Source: Paludibacteraceae bacterium
GTDB lineage: Bacteria; Bacteroidota; Bacteroidia; Bacteroidales; Paludibacteraceae
Direction of reading: 5' to 3'
Length of the DNA: 61,435 bases
Assembly (NCBI GenBank): GCA_017412245.1
Contig: JAFPYI010000027.1
Span: forward strand, 1 to 61,435
In this document: positions 13,666-19,123 of the stretch, one piece after another
How the letters are laid out: every line of letters begins with the position of its first letter
Position numbering within the stretch: position 1 is the stretch's first letter
Notes under the pieces: model-generated
Told to the model about the DNA's origin: nothing
Database searches by the model: none
The model's input: only the letters and a program-made list of their open reading frames with translations
Translations under genes and position numbers: made by a program

Positions 13666-14157
13666 TTAGAATTTTAAATCATATTTCACATATTTCGGTT
13701 CGTCATACTTCCATGTATGGGTGACGATTTGTTTCTCTTTGCGTTTCTTGCCTTCCACTTCCACTTTCTCTTCTACATCTACGCTGAATGTCTCTTCATC
13801 TACGCTCACAAGTTGACCGTAAATCTTCTTTCCGTTCACCAACATTTCAACATCATGACCGAGATTCTTCTCGTACTGCAACTTTGTCTTGAACGGAGCT
13901 GTCAAACTCACACTTCCTACTTCCAGAGAATAATTATTTTCTCCCTTCCCTTCAGGGAGGGGCTGGGGGTAGGCCCCATCCAATTTCTCCACAAGATATC
14001 TGTTCAACTCCGCGCAGAATTCTACATCCACGCCCGCAAGTCTGTCTATTTCAACCAATATATCATTCCCGCTGGACACTTCTAAAGTAACCAATTCATA
14101 ATCCGTGCCAAACAGCTTCTCTTGAATGATTTTTTCGATTTCTTTCTTGTCTATCAT
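13666..14157 (-). CDS. rimP: Ribosome maturation factor RimP with an inserted repeat-encoded peptide
   Basis: The 163-residue protein carries the RimP landmarks: an N-terminal alpha/beta domain with LAGVDVEFCAELNRYL, the SVSLTAPFK segment (normally SPGLdRPL/f) and the SH3-like C-terminal domain. It helps late 30S assembly. The stretch YPQPLPEGKGENNY comes from a G-rich palindromic element inserted at 13941-13975, in opposite orientation to those in aroA, inside the link before the SVSL segment. First gene of the rimP-nusA-infB operon; a canonical promoter lies about 115 bases upstream. Confidence 0.9.
   Translation of the reverse strand: MIDKKEIEKIIQEKLFGTDYELVTLEVSSGNDILVEIDRLAGVDVEFCAELNRYLVEKLDGAYPQPLPEGKGENNYSLEVGSVSLTAPFKTKLQYEKNLGHDVEMLVNGKKIYGQLVSVDEETFSVDVEEKVEVEGKKRKEKQIVTHTWKYDEPKYVKYDLKF
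13941..13975. repeat. G-rich palindromic element, copy 5 (inside rimP, inverted)
   Basis: The plus strand reads CTCCCTTCCCTTCAGGGAGG then GGCTGGGGGTAGGCC. This is the same element as in aroA but on the opposite strand relative to its host gene, so it is translated as PQPLPEGKG. Confidence 0.8.
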
Positions 14158-14256: not shown

Positions 14257-14269
14257 ACTCATTTCACGC

Positions 14270-14359
14270 TGCAAAATTACTACAAAAGTTTGACATATGC
14301 AAGTTTTTGAGCAAAAAAATTAAATTTATTTAAGTTTTTGGTATGAAAACGCGCATATG
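14270..14359 (-). repeat. Promoter module, copy 1 (rimP operon)
   Basis: About 90 bp nearly identical to 15448-15538, in the same orientation. It contains the rimP promoter and the A/T-rich region upstream of it. Confidence 0.9.
14272..14302 (-). promoter_or_regulatory. Promoter of rimP-nusA-infB
   Basis: The minus strand has a TTG -33 element, a 20-bp spacer and TAATTTTG as the -7 element, matching the Bacteroidetes primary sigma consensus TTTG/TAnnTTTG. Confidence 0.8.
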
Positions 14360-14402
14360 AGCACGAACGTGCGACCGTAATTTCGCGCGAATGCACTACT
14401 TA

Positions 14403-15347
14403 TTACTCTACTACCAAATTTCCTAATGTATATCCCTGATAGCGGATAGGAACTTCCATACCATGGTAAACTGTAACAGTATGTTTGTCAAATACTCTCC
14501 ACACACTGGATGCTGTCTCGCCGATGGTAATCACTTCTTCTACATGACCCGGTAAAGCAACCAATGTAGAGGTAAGGTCCTTTGTCTCAAAATATAATTG
14601 TCTCGAATCACCAATAGTAAAGGTTGTTCCGGCAGGAGCAGCCGTGTAAACAGTGGTCTTACCGGACACTTCTTTGGTACGGATTACATCTTTCTCCTCT
14701 GTATACAAAGCAGCACCTATTGCCACCATATCTTTGGTTGCCACATTACTACCAAGCAGGATACCTACATTATCTCCGGCCTGCGCCTGATCAAGCGTCT
14801 TATGGAACATCTCTATTCCTTCAACTGTACTCTTAATAACACCCAAACTGTCTGGCAGATTGGCAATATAGACAGACTGCCCTGTAAATACTTTATCCTT
14901 TAGCACTGTACCGGTCACTACTATTCCACGATCCGCAACATTAAATACGTCTTCCACATACATTAAGAAATCACTTCCCACATTTACGGTTATCTTGATA
15001 TTCGGAGCTACTTTTGACGACGCCCAAGCTTCCAACTCTTCATTTGGAGTGGCGGTAATTGTGGTCTTACCAAAACCAACTGCACTTATCGCATCATCTA
15101 CAAAAGATAAAATACTTTTGTCGGCTATCTTGATCTCATAATCCTCCCACACAGCTTTGTACGGCTGTAAAGCAGACAGGGTATCAAGTTTCACCATGTC
15201 CCCTCTATTCATGTCAAAACTCAATTTGATTTCCTTGCGAGTATCGTCATCCGGATCATCCGGTTTGTTCTTCTTCTCACAAGAAATCATCATAAAACTC
15301 AGTAATGAAACGCTCATTAGAGCTACTAAAAACTTACTTGCTTTCAT
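14403..15347 (-). CDS. Lipoprotein carrying EF-Tu-like domains II and III without a GTPase domain
   Basis: The 314-residue protein has a lipoprotein signal (lipobox ending at Cys23) and an Asp-rich linker. A bacterial Ig-like region follows (about 38-123, ending FGKTTITATPNEE). Residues about 127-221 match EF-Tu domain II: FLMYVEDVF, RGIVVTGTV, VEGIEMFHKTLDQAQAGDNV and GILL, against [36 protein letters not shown] and GLLL in EF-Tu. Residues about 222-314 match domain III (RQLYFETKDLTSTLVALPG, TVTVYHGMEVPIRY, TLGNLVV). No G-domain or P-loop is present. Known: these barrels bind tRNA/EF-Ts in EF-Tu. Inferred: an envelope-anchored repurposed elongation-factor module. It shares a duplicated promoter with the downstream rimP operon. 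Confidence 0.85.
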   Translation of the reverse strand: MKASKFLVALMSVSLLSFMMISCEKKNKPDDPDDDTRKEIKLSFDMNRGDMVKLDTLSALQPYKAVWEDYEIKIADKSILSFVDDAISAVGFGKTTITATPNEELEAWASSKVAPNIKITVNVGSDFLMYVEDVFNVADRGIVVTGTVLKDKVFTGQSVYIANLPDSLGVIKSTVEGIEMFHKTLDQAQAGDNVGILLGSNVATKDMVAIGAALYTEEKDVIRTKEVSGKTTVYTAAPAGTTFTIGDSRQLYFETKDLTSTLVALPGHVEEVITIGETASSVWRVFDKHTVTVYHGMEVPIRYQGYTLGNLVVE

Positions 15348-15447
15348 ATCTTTATTATTTTTTTAAATTAAATAAATTGTACTCAATCGATTTCATAAAA
15401 AAACACTCACGCTCCACAAAATTTCACACCCCAACACACATTTGCGT

Positions 15448-15538
15448 TGCAAAATTACTACAAAAGTTTGACATATGCAAGTTTTTTGACAAAAAATTAA
15501 ACTTATTTAAATTTTTAGGCATAAAAGCGCGCATATGA
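15448..15538 (-). repeat. Promoter module, copy 2 (EF-Tu-domain lipoprotein)
   Basis: Direct-repeat partner of 14270-14359, with a few substitutions and single-base indels in 90 bp. It carries the lipoprotein promoter. Confidence 0.9.
15450..15480 (-). promoter_or_regulatory. Promoter of the EF-Tu-domain lipoprotein
   Basis: TTG, a 20-bp spacer and TAATTTTG on the minus strand; base for base the same core as the rimP promoter. Confidence 0.8.
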
Positions 15539-15588
15539 CCTTTCTATACTCTTCTCAAACCGATTAGATATCCTTTACGTGGTTCTTC

Positions 15589-15629
15589 CGTAGGATTACC
15601 GTAGAATACCCGTAGGATTACCGTAAGAT
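15589..15629. repeat. 11-bp tandem array between divergent promoters
   Basis: Units CGTAGGATTAC, CGTAGAATACC, CGTAGGATTAC and a partial CGTAAGAT follow each other with an 11-bp period. The array lies between the lipoprotein promoter (minus) and the mfd promoter (plus). Confidence 0.85.
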
Positions 15630-15773
15630 AAAACGCCATTTTTGCAAATTACCTCTTTATACTGTATATATACATAGTATATATACACTTTTTGTGCTTC
15701 AAATCCGAAAATCATAAGCAACATCCCCTTGTGGTAACTTTTACCAAAAAAGTTACGAAAAATGGCACTCGTA

Positions 15774-15805
15774 TTTGCGTATATCATTTTTTTTTAGTAC
15801 CTTTG
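15774..15805 (+). promoter_or_regulatory. Promoter of mfd
   Basis: TTTG (15774), a 20-bp spacer and TACCTTTG (15798-15805). The expected start of transcription near 15813 excludes ATG codons further upstream and supports the GTG at 15836 as the mfd start. Confidence 0.85.
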
Positions 15806-15835
15806 CGCCCGATTTTAATTTGCGGTAATAGGCAC

Positions 15836-18800
15836 GTGAATATAGGTGACATACAAACTTTATTTGCTCAGCATCCCGAAATAGCGTTGGCGAAAAAGGA
15901 ACTGACTAAAGGAAAAGATATTCATCTTCTCCTTTCCGGTTTGTATGCAAGCACGCGGGCACTCACGCTCAGCGCGCTGAAAGACACAGCGCCGCTATTC
16001 ATCATTCTCGACAACACAGAGAGCGCACAATACCTCTACGCGGACCTGAAAACGATTCTACCCGATAACTCTTCCGCACCGGAGATCCTGTGGTTCCCTG
16101 CTGCGCAGAAAAGACGCGCGGTAGACGAAGCGGCACAAATACAGAGAACAGAAACACTAACCGCGCTATCTAAAGGAAACGGCCAATTTGTCATCACCTA
16201 TCCCGAAGCCGTTTCTGAAACCGTGCCGGCGAAAGAGACACTGACAAAAAATAGTTTCACGCTGTGCGTGGGACAGGAGATTCAACTCTCGCAACTGAAT
16301 AATCAACTCTCCGAACTGAACTTCACGCATGTGGATTTCGTCTTCGAACCCGGACAATACGCCATTCGAGGAGGAATAGTCGACATATACAGTTACAGTC
16401 ACGACAACCCGTACCGAATAGACTTCTTCGGAGACGAGATAGACTCCATACGAGAGTTCGACATCGAGGACCAGCTTTCAAAAGCCAAAATCGAAACAGC
16501 AGAAATCGTTGCCGCGAACTCTTCTGAGCCGACGCAGGCATCTGTCCTCGATTATTTGCCGCAAAAATGCATCTGGGTATCAAACGATTTCGCGGTCGTC
16601 AAATATAAATTGCCTACTCTCTTGGGCGAAGAAAAATGGGGAGAAAAACTGACAACCATCGAATTAGCGGAGAAAAGTTATTTCCCCGCCCATTCGAAAA
16701 TCACTTTTGACACCACGCCACAACCCGTCTTCCGCAAACAATTTGACATCCTTACGGAAGACATCCGGAAACACCTCGACGAAGGATACAAGATTTATAT
16801 CTTGGCGGACCAAAAGAAACAACTCGACCGTCTGCAGGCTATCTTTGAAGCACAGACGGACGATCAGATTGTTTTCCAACCCGTTCAAGGAATCTTACAC
16901 GAAGGATTCATAGATCATTCGCTCAAAATCTGTTGTTATACCGACCATCAAATCTTCGAACGTTACCATCGTGTCACAATGGCATCGGAAAACGCCAGAA
17001 GAGGAAAAGCGATTATCACCCTTCGGGAAATCAACCAACTCCAAATCGGAGATTATGTGGTTCATTCCGATCATGGTATCGCTAAGTTTGGAGGACTGGT
17101 CACAACGACTGTCAACGGACGGCAACAGGAGATGATCAAACTCAACTACCGCGACGGAGCAAACGTGTTCGTCTCTATCCATAACCTTCATCGTATCTCC
17201 AAATACAAAGGGAAAGAAGGTTCGGAACCGACCATCTCTCGTCTTGGAAGCGGAGCGTGGGAAAGACTCAAAGAGCGCACAAAAGATAAAGTAAAGGACA
17301 TAGCACGAGACTTAATCCGACTCTACGCCACTCGCAAGCAGCAGAAAGGCTTTGCTTACACGCCGGACGGATATATGCAACACGAATTGGAAGCTTCCTT
17401 CCTCTACGAAGACACGCCGGACCAAGCAAAAGCAACCGCTGACGTGAAGCATGATTTGGAAAGTCCCATGCCGATGGATAGACTCGTCTGTGGAGATGTG
17501 GGCTTCGGAAAAACAGAAGTCGCTATGAGGGCTGCCTTCAAAGTAGCCACAGACGGAAAACAGGTTGCTGTACTGGTACCGACAACGGTCTTGGCTTTGC
17601 AGCACTATAACACATTCCGCGAGCGAATGGCAAACATGCCCGTAAGAATAGAATATCTCAGCCGACTCAAGTCGGCTAAGGAAACAAAACAACTGCTCAC
17701 GGACCTGGAAGCAGGAAAAATTGATATTCTTATCGGCACACATAAACTCGTAAGCAAAACTGTCAAATGGCACGACCTCGGATTGTTGATTATTGATGAG
17801 GAGCAGAAATTCGGAGTTGCAGTAAAAGAGAAACTCAAAGCGCTTAGAGCCAACGTGGATGTTCTCACACTCACAGCCACACCTATTCCGCGAACTCTAC
17901 AATTCAGTCTGCTCGGAGCGCGTGACTTAAGTATCATGACCACGCCGCCACCTAACAGATATCCCGTCCAAACGGAACTCATCACACTCGATGACGAAGA
18001 TATAATCAAAGAGGCTATCGACCTTGAGATGGCAAGAAACGGACAGGTATTCATCGTCAATAATCGTATCGACATGTTACCACGTATCGAGAGACGTATC
18101 CATAAACTTTGTCCGGATGCACGAATCATCATCGCCCATGGACAATTACCGCCGGGAGAAATGGAAGAGCGACTCGAAGCGTTCATCAATTATGATTACG
18201 ATATCCTTATCGCCACAACGATTATCGAGTCCGGAGTGGACATCCCGAATGTCAACACTATCTTGATTTTCTCCGCACAGCAATACGGTTTGGCGGACTT
18301 GCATCAGTTACGGGGACGAGTGGGACGAAGCAACAGAAAAGCATATTGTTATCTCATCACGCCGGATAGAGAACTCTTGACAGAGAACGCTCGCAGACGA
18401 TTGGAGGCATTAGGCACTTTCGCGGAATTGGGAGCAGGATTCAATCTTGCTATGCAAGACCTTGATATTCGAGGAGCAGGAAACATGCTCGGAGCGGAAC
18501 AATCAGGATTTATTGCTGACTTAGGTTATGAAACCTACCAACGCATTCTCAACGAGGCCGTGGAAGAGATAAAAGAAGAGGACGGATTGTTGAATGCTTT
18601 CGAAAGAGAGGACACAAACCACTCAAACGAAAAAATAGCATGGTGTAGCGATTGTCAATTGGAAACAGACTTACCCGTTTGTTTCCCGAACGAATATATT
18701 GAGAATATCAGCGAACGAATCACGTTGTACCGGGAATTGGATAGCCTCCATAGCGAAGAACAGTTATTGGACTTCAAGAAACGCTTAATCGACCGTTTTG

Positions 18801-19123
18801 GCGTTTTGCCCGAACCCGCGGAAGAATTACTTTCTGTCGTTCGACTGCGCTGGCTGTGTTGTCGATTGGGAATAGAAAAGATCCTGCTCAAAGGAGAAAG
18901 AATGACATTATACCTCGTGCAAAAGAAAGATGCCTATTGGCAATCAGAGACCTTCGGAAAACTGATTCAATATGCTATCACGCGACCCGAAAGGTGCAAC
19001 TTGCATGAAGAGGTAGATAAAAAAGGATTAAAAACCGGAAGACGGTATATCACTATAACTAATGTAAAAACGATTGCTGGAGCAATGAACTTGCTCACAA
19101 AAATTGAAAATAAAGAAATATGA
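15836..19123 (+). CDS. mfd: Transcription-repair coupling factor Mfd
   Basis: The product is about 1095 residues from a GTG start chosen because it lies just downstream of the promoter. In order it shows the UvrB-like module (FEPGQYAIRGGIVDIYSY), the CarD/RID RNA-polymerase-interaction domain (GDYVVHSDHGIAKFGGL and MIKLNYRDG) and the helicase motor with GDVGFGKTEVA (Walker A), IIDEEQKFGV (DEEQ) and TATPIPRTL. The TRCF C-terminal domain follows. Mfd removes RNA polymerase stalled at lesions and recruits UvrA. It overlaps kdsB by four bases (ATGA), so the two are translationally coupled. Confidence 0.97.
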   Translation: MNIGDIQTLFAQHPEIALAKKELTKGKDIHLLLSGLYASTRALTLSALKDTAPLFIILDNTESAQYLYADLKTILPDNSSAPEILWFPAAQKRRAVDEAAQIQRTETLTALSKGNGQFVITYPEAVSETVPAKETLTKNSFTLCVGQEIQLSQLNNQLSELNFTHVDFVFEPGQYAIRGGIVDIYSYSHDNPYRIDFFGDEIDSIREFDIEDQLSKAKIETAEIVAANSSEPTQASVLDYLPQKCIWVSNDFAVVKYKLPTLLGEEKWGEKLTTIELAEKSYFPAHSKITFDTTPQPVFRKQFDILTEDIRKHLDEGYKIYILADQKKQLDRLQAIFEAQTDDQIVFQPVQGILHEGFIDHSLKICCYTDHQIFERYHRVTMASENARRGKAIITLREINQLQIGDYVVHSDHGIAKFGGLVTTTVNGRQQEMIKLNYRDGANVFVSIHNLHRISKYKGKEGSEPTISRLGSGAWERLKERTKDKVKDIARDLIRLYATRKQQKGFAYTPDGYMQHELEASFLYEDTPDQAKATADVKHDLESPMPMDRLVCGDVGFGKTEVAMRAAFKVATDGKQVAVLVPTTVLALQHYNTFRERMANMPVRIEYLSRLKSAKETKQLLTDLEAGKIDILIGTHKLVSKTVKWHDLGLLIIDEEQKFGVAVKEKLKALRANVDVLTLTATPIPRTLQFSLLGARDLSIMTTPPPNRYPVQTELITLDDEDIIKEAIDLEMARNGQVFIVNNRIDMLPRIERRIHKLCPDARIIIAHGQLPPGEMEERLEAFINYDYDILIATTIIESGVDIPNVNTILIFSAQQYGLADLHQLRGRVGRSNRKAYCYLITPDRELLTENARRRLEALGTFAELGAGFNLAMQDLDIRGAGNMLGAEQSGFIADLGYETYQRILNEAVEEIKEEDGLLNAFEREDTNHSNEKIAWCSDCQLETDLPVCFPNEYIENISERITLYRELDSLHSEEQLLDFKKRLIDRFGVLPEPAEELLSVVRLRWLCCRLGIEKILLKGERMTLYLVQKKDAYWQSETFGKLIQYAITRPERCNLHEEVDKKGLKTGRRYITITNVKTIAGAMNLLTKIENKEI

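Follow-up and report, generated by a model that had tools for sequence, protein, structure and literature searches.

The window, the stretch of 61,435 nucleotides of Paludibacteraceae DNA analysed here, carries on its reverse strand an open reading frame with an ATG start and no internal stops (Table 1). It is flanked on one side by rimP (13666-14157, minus strand), followed by nusA and infB, and on the other side by mfd (15692-19123, plus strand). The neighbours were named from NCBIfam matches, that of RimP lying slightly under the cut-off. The original prediction had described the product as an envelope lipoprotein with a signal ending at Cys23, an Ig-like middle region and EF-Tu domains II and III at its C-terminal end, and all four peptides that it quoted are present in the translation. 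Judged by eye, the start of the protein appears to be of the lipoprotein type, as had been proposed, with MIS directly before Cys23 in a lipobox-like context. The Ig-like region could not be confirmed, residues 24-122 giving no significant match in Pfam (best E 0.044). A full-length EF-Tu in another frame, which the prediction had named as a possible counter-finding, was not seen on inspection of the ORFs at the locus. We also considered the string GFGKTT near residue 92 as a P-loop, however, its alignment to the EF-Tu G1 motif gives -2.5 bits and the resemblance was therefore taken as chance.

Table 1. Features of the gene and its surroundings in the window, and proteins related to its product.
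Feature or protein	Position	Strand	Length	Group	Basis or remark
CDS, predicted exported EF-Tu domain II-III protein	14403..15347	-	314 aa		ORF, profile matches
Lipoprotein-type signal peptide, residues 1-22	15282..15347	-			by eye
Cys23, presumed lipidation site (MISC-EKKNKPDDPDDD)	15279..15281	-			by eye
Acidic linker and N-terminal region, residues 24-122	14982..15278	-			Big/Ig-like motif seen only by eye
EF-Tu domain II, residues 127-200, with Tyr130 (EF-Tu position 213)	14748..14969	-			profile and signature
Residues 175-197, VEGIEMFHKTLDQAQAGDNVGIL, forming part of the domain II pocket that is kept	14757..14825	-			contact list in passages of PMC8183687
Domain III-type region, residues 210-314	14406..14720	-			match to the other seven members
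Promoter-like region ahead of the lipoprotein gene, a diverged copy of that upstream of rimP	15445..15538	-			
Matching repeat upstream of rimP	14267..14360	-			
G171 protein (P0006)			252 aa	window's genus	signal-type start
G127 protein (P0005)			258 aa	window's genus	signal-type start
G195 protein (P0007)			260 aa seen, cut by contig end	Clostridia	
G194 protein (P0003)			804 aa	Clostridia	three SLH stretches
G196 protein (P0004)			2051 aa	Clostridia	three SLH stretches
G360 protein (P0002)			frame of 2031	Clostridia	three SLH stretches
G1269 protein	L229:1579-5055		frame of 1159	Clostridia	three SLH stretches

Four EF-Tu models of NCBIfam match the window protein from residue 122 or 123 to residue 313, with E values from 4.7e-24 to 1.9e-22, and the matches begin at EF-Tu positions 206-208 and end at 389-391. 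All four scores fall far short of the full-length cut-offs, the best being 84.9 bits with NF000766, for which the cut-off is 449, as is expected for a protein that has no GTPase domain. A phmmer search of PDB sequences likewise placed EF-Tu at the top (1.4e-19, residues 123-313). The Pfam model GTP_EFTU_D2 (PF03144) gives 30.2 bits, just short of its cut-off of 30.3, and the same stretch reached 33.1 bits, above the cut-off, in the genome search. No G-domain family of Pfam matches the protein, and a GTPase domain with a G1 motif is absent. The profile searches hence bear out the proposed pairing of EF-Tu domains II and III without a GTPase domain.

Taken domain by domain the prediction fares differently. 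Domain II is certain on its own evidence, as it scores 67.2 bits against a local profile of EF-Tu domain II, where the best of 1000 shuffles gives 8.1. Domain III, which carries Tyr294 and Met297 (EF-Tu positions 369 and 372), does not stand alone: its 11.6 bits against the corresponding EF-Tu profile are not above chance (best shuffle 13.7), and Pfam domain III (PF03143) finds no match in the window protein. It is recovered through the family: a profile built from the seven other exported proteins gives it 44.5 bits, where shuffles reach at most 8.3. Against EF-Tu domain III the relatives score 67.1 (G171), 63.4 (G194), 45.8 (G127), 20.1 (G1269), 10.8 (G195), 10.8 (G360) and 5.7 bits (G196), and P0003, P0005 and P0006 pass the Pfam domain III cut-off. 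When each member in turn is scored against the other seven, its C-terminal region gives 44.5-87.4 bits, with shuffles at or below 10.2. Because of these scores, the domain III regions of the exported proteins are, at the level of sequence, kin of one another, even where the likeness to EF-Tu has faded.

Genome searches brought seven relatives. Two belong to the genus of the window and five to what we take to be Clostridia; records of relatives are SVKO01000001.1 (Oscillospiraceae), JAILRZ010000199.1 (Eubacterium) and CADBKF010000031.1 (Ruminococcaceae). None of the eight members has a GTPase-domain match, and all eight have N termini that look signal-like by eye. The N-terminal parts differ among the members, and comprise the lipoprotein signal of the window protein, signal-like starts, or three SLH (PF00395) stretches, the latter in P0002, P0003, P0004 and the G1269 protein, all from Clostridia. 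Ahead of its SLH domains the G196 protein (L062:2988-9140) has a long stretch that appears cysteine-rich by eye. Adjoining the exported-protein gene of G171, another small secreted-looking protein is encoded (L068:4609-5097), with a C-terminal segment that by eye resembles a type 9 secretion sorting tail.

In the window's genus an exported barrel protein occurs in 3 of 178 genomes, doubtful matches having been inspected, and in the genus of G196 and G360 in 3 of 23. The family of G195 yielded one in 200 genomes at E 1e-46 or better, the family of G194 at least two in 200, and a sample of the window's order at least one in 295 above the EF-Tu score. These frequencies are lower bounds, since EF-Tu scores fall in the same range and diverged members can escape. 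An EF-Tu-sized frame is also present in the genomes of G194 (414 aa), G196 (412), G360 (422) and G171 (399), so the exported protein is an extra there. No ordinary EF-Tu was seen in the window's genome, which is 62% complete, or in those of G127, G195 and G1269. Among open-licence PMC papers we found none on an exported or GTPase-less EF-Tu family; the earlier statement that no such family is described thus agrees with the literature found, but was too narrow, as a family of at least eight members exists.

The exported proteins share residues that set them apart from EF-Tu. At EF-Tu position 213 all eight have Tyr, where each of 98 distinct cellular EF-Tus has Pro. Tyr is likewise absent from 209 other matched frames that cover the site (Pro in 204, Ala in 3, Ser in 2), in a count that takes in all fetched loci and in which some frames are repeats of one gene. 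The set of 98 consists of ORFs of 380-480 aa with GHVDHGKTT (or an equivalent pattern start), viral-contig EF-Tus being left out, and the same length and motif were required for the earlier signature and pocket counts. Both sets were chosen without any requirement at position 213 and only these were counted there; the EF-Tu rows behind the tree and the first pocket test had been selected by a pattern requiring P or A there. At position 369 each of the eight members has Tyr, Phe or His, residues that no EF-Tu of the 98 has there. Leu occupies position 372 in 97 of the 98; six members have Gln, and the window protein and that of genome G195 have Met. As Met372 also occurs in 13 viral-contig EF-Tus, only Gln372 is distinctive and Met372 is no mark of the family, so that of the two marks proposed the window protein carries Tyr213 and lacks Gln372. 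The signature positions were noted on seven members; G1269 was found afterwards and fits, although it is not a fully independent test, its search profile having been built from the seven.

A tree was made of seven exported proteins (G1269 not included) and 37 EF-Tu rows, among which one E. coli sequence appears twice; in it the exported proteins form one side of a branch (99/96). The tree comes with a long-branch warning, the end branches running from 0.86 to 5.36, and position 213 speaks more clearly than the tree for one origin of the exported proteins. No EF-Tu compared is more than 38.5% identical to the window protein. An early set gave a clostridial EF-Tu as the best match for all seven proteins; in the larger set the best matches from the window's order (51) and from Clostridia (46) differ by just 0.2 to 4.2 points, and the claim of a clostridial donor was therefore dropped. 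The signatures common to both groups suggest gene transfer, by which the module may have moved between them.

Upstream of both rimP and the lipoprotein gene lies a copy of a 94-nt direct repeat, the two copies (14267-14360 and 15445-15538, respectively) being 84% identical and gap-free. By eye the repeat holds TAATTTTG about 20 nt past CTTG, an arrangement like the Bacteroides promoter consensus. Several relatives have comparable stretches close to rimP, and a few weaker ones lie at other genes; for this reason we read the 94-nt region as a putative promoter region that was copied or kept upon arrival of the gene. The rimP loci comprise the window and 29 relatives, from 55 genomes with a match among 61 searched. 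In two of them (L245 and L262) mfd adjoins rimP within the 1.5 kb read and the lipoprotein gene is absent; in the other 27 the 1.5 kb read showed no match to mfd or to any relative of the gene. Across these loci (L234-L263) the gene upstream of rimP varies among species of the genus, rimP itself being conserved. Between the gene and mfd, at 15588-15630, a unit like CCGTAGGATTA recurs at 11-nt spacing in a short array. The GC content of the gene, 41.5% as against 44.4% for the window, is little informative, and Rfam gave nothing at the locus.

In EF-Tu the domain II pocket accommodates the aminoacyl end of tRNA as well as peptide antibiotics such as GE2270A. For E. coli EF-Tu, passages of the review PMC8183687 list D216, G222, R223, T256, G257, E259, F261, R262, N273, V274, G275 and L277 as contacts of GE2270A, and describe a salt bridge between R223 and E259 as locking the antibiotic. 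Nine of these 12 are kept in the window protein (D216, R223, G257, E259, F261, N273, V274, G275 and L277), seven of them as residues G177, E179, F181, N193, V194, G195 and L197 of the stretch 175-197. Over the whole family, the commonest EF-Tu residue is retained by all eight members at 223, 275 and 277 (R223, G275 and L277 of EF-Tu), by seven at 216 and 273 (D216 and N273) as well as 257, 261 and 274, by six at 259, by five at 222 and by none at 256 or 262. The R223-E259 pair is found in six members, the G127 and G1269 proteins being without E259. T256 and R262 are replaced throughout, a residue other than R at 262 being found in about 20% of EF-Tus too.

We then compared columns with a conservation of at least 95% among EF-Tus. 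Ten of these are contact columns, and they are kept in a mean of 6.3 of the eight members, compared to 4.6 for 27 other domain II columns (p = 0.046) and 3.4 for 43 domain III columns (p = 0.0013). An earlier pocket test, in which approximate segments stood in for the published contact list, had given p = 0.0026. Retention of the pocket hence appears modestly higher than that of other conserved domain II columns. Furthermore, 13 columns are invariant in seven members, and four of these are the GE2270A contacts R223, G257, G275 and L277. The domain II set is not kept in E. coli SelB (22.1 bits) and CysN (6.5 bits), which are distant and poorly aligned, or in LepA, TypA and IF-2 of this genome, where the alignment is again weak (4 to 22 bits for all controls); EF-G did not align at all.

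On the tRNA side the picture is different. Passages of PMC10653918 describe a pocket with G317, R318, H319 and E378 of EF-Tu domain III, which lie beside the tRNA. These four are kept in 5, 3, 2 and 3 of the eight members, respectively, and R333 in none of seven. The window protein retains just G317 and its module holds 15 K and R against 24 D and E, because of which an EF-Tu-like tRNA-binding role is disfavoured. Basic residues are fewer than acidic ones in all seven modules counted.

Homology between the window protein and EF-Tu (TIGR00485, NF000766) extends over both barrels, but the exported proteins differ from EF-Tu in having no GTPase domain, a signal-type N terminus, Tyr213 and a far diverged domain III, and many residues that EF-Tu conserves are lost. 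SLH-domain surface proteins (PF00395) provide a second point of comparison, through the three SLH stretches in half of the members. To our knowledge no SLH protein has been described as carrying EF-Tu barrels, and none was found among open-licence PMC papers. EF-Tu itself is found on many bacterial surfaces, where it is debated whether this reflects function or leakage. That surface-moonlighting EF-Tu is, according to passages of PMC5593925 and PMC6822514, the ordinary tuf product without a signal peptide, plus proteolytic fragments. It shares with the present proteins the placing of EF-Tu barrels outside the cytoplasm, where ours are predicted to be exported, whereas here a separate gene has its own signal and no GTPase domain. 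Like Bacteroidota surface lipoproteins, the window protein has by eye an SPII-type start and an acidic stretch past the cysteine. The surface-export signals given in passages of PMC5080379 and PMC6222051 are C-X-K-(D/E)2 or CS(D/E)2 right behind the cysteine; the window protein begins C-E-K-K-N-K-P-D-D-P-D-D-D, which matches neither, its acidic run lying at +8 to +13 instead of directly behind the cysteine.

Our tentative reading of these data is a small, apparently undescribed family of exported EF-Tu domain II-III binding modules in which the domain II pocket is most likely used. In this model the double barrel, cut loose from the GTPase domain, would be the functional end of the protein. 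The signals, as recognised by eye, would send the protein out, and it would be held in the envelope by a lipid anchor in the window species and by SLH wall anchors in four Clostridia. The exported protein would have no role in translation, and its barrel pair, at or close to the C terminus, may be presented as a binding head. The domain II pocket most likely binds a peptide-like or aminoacyl-like ligand outside the cytoplasm; its retention suggests a ligand resembling that of the EF-Tu pocket, the exact ligand being a guess. A family of barrels-only genes behind export-type signals, with a conserved residue of its own, would show that this half of EF-Tu has evolved into a form committed to the outside of the cell. 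A purified module could be screened for ligands without an interfering translation function, and the pocket residues and Tyr213 are concrete residues for mutation.

It is also quite possible that the proteins are specialised adhesins, derived from surface EF-Tu, a known moonlighting adhesin, that was duplicated, lost its GTPase domain and gained export signals. Here host, plant or microbial glycans or proteins would be bound by other faces of the barrels, the pocket serving mainly for folding, and adhesion of this kind is nearly as likely as a ligand in the pocket. According to passages of PMC5593925, surface EF-Tu and its fragments bind heparin, and the fibronectin-binding regions map to the beginning of domain II and to the greater part of domain III. 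Surface adhesion would also suit the four members that have SLH domains and large multidomain neighbours. The same passages tie heparin binding to basic clusters, however, whereas the modules counted are all more acidic than basic, and the four GE2270A contacts among the invariant columns would count somewhat against an adhesin using other faces.

Two roles centred on EF-Tu-directed compounds also deserve consideration. In the first, which we regard as unlikely, a displayed trap whose GTP-free domain II pocket captures EF-Tu-directed peptides or aminoacyl-type molecules would have spread between the two groups by transfer. In the second, equally doubtful, the displayed domain II would act as a decoy that soaks up GE2270A-type thiopeptides before they reach cytoplasmic EF-Tu. 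The decoy is consistent with the position of the GE2270A contacts in domain II (passages of PMC8183687), 9 of 12 of which the window protein keeps, and with the statement in passages of PMC9529903 that GE2270A does not interact with domains I and III. It fits poorly with the changes at T256 and R262 in every member and the loss of the salt-bridge residue E259 in two. GE2270A is moreover described in passages of PMC4307249 as active on Gram-positive bacteria, so that the window cell, if Gram-negative as we infer, would gain little. The site itself is put elsewhere by PMC7136475, between domains I and III, and by passages of PMC10653918, between domains 1 and 2.

That the barrel pair is a mere structural spacer or relic, a ligand-free stalk or terminal cap, seems improbable. 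Fast divergence, as seen in the end branches of the tree, would be in keeping with such a role, as would the four members whose domain III region, set against that of EF-Tu, scores under the best shuffle (13.7 bits), but both barrels are kept in order in all eight, and selection is indicated by the new residues held in common and by the pocket columns that were kept. An artefact, be it a misassembly, the fusion of a broken tuf gene to a signal peptide or a falsely recognised export signal, is very improbable and largely refuted, for although the window genome is incomplete, in 41 contigs and without an EF-Tu-sized domain II frame, the ORF is intact, lies 14 kb inside its contig between rimP and mfd, is far from any EF-Tu compared, and has seven relatives in separate genomes.

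Several other candidates were rejected as members of the family. The matches in G162 and G048 are pieces of EF-Tu, that in G012 is an unrelated lipoprotein, and sixteen further matches from the window's genus, in frames below 380 aa, are EF-Tu, with Pro213 and Leu372 wherever these sites are covered. The pattern EMFHK, found in 14 of 391 genomes, was discarded as a family mark, being present in clostridial EF-Tus as well; of the loci fetched, that of G194 alone has Tyr213. With P0001 as tblastn query, matches were obtained in 85 plasmid and 15 phage records. Among the matches listed, which are without 65 plasmid records, all named features are EF-Tu and several rows are unannotated, and a plasmid or phage origin was rejected. 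Scans of viral contigs with the queries P0001 and A2 gave no relative. The 15 viral-contig EF-Tus (A3) are 27-33% identical to the window protein, compared to up to 38.5% for cellular ones. Viral contigs L162-L182, 13 of the 21 being longer than 190 kb, carry EF-Tu genes 50-100% identical to the query.
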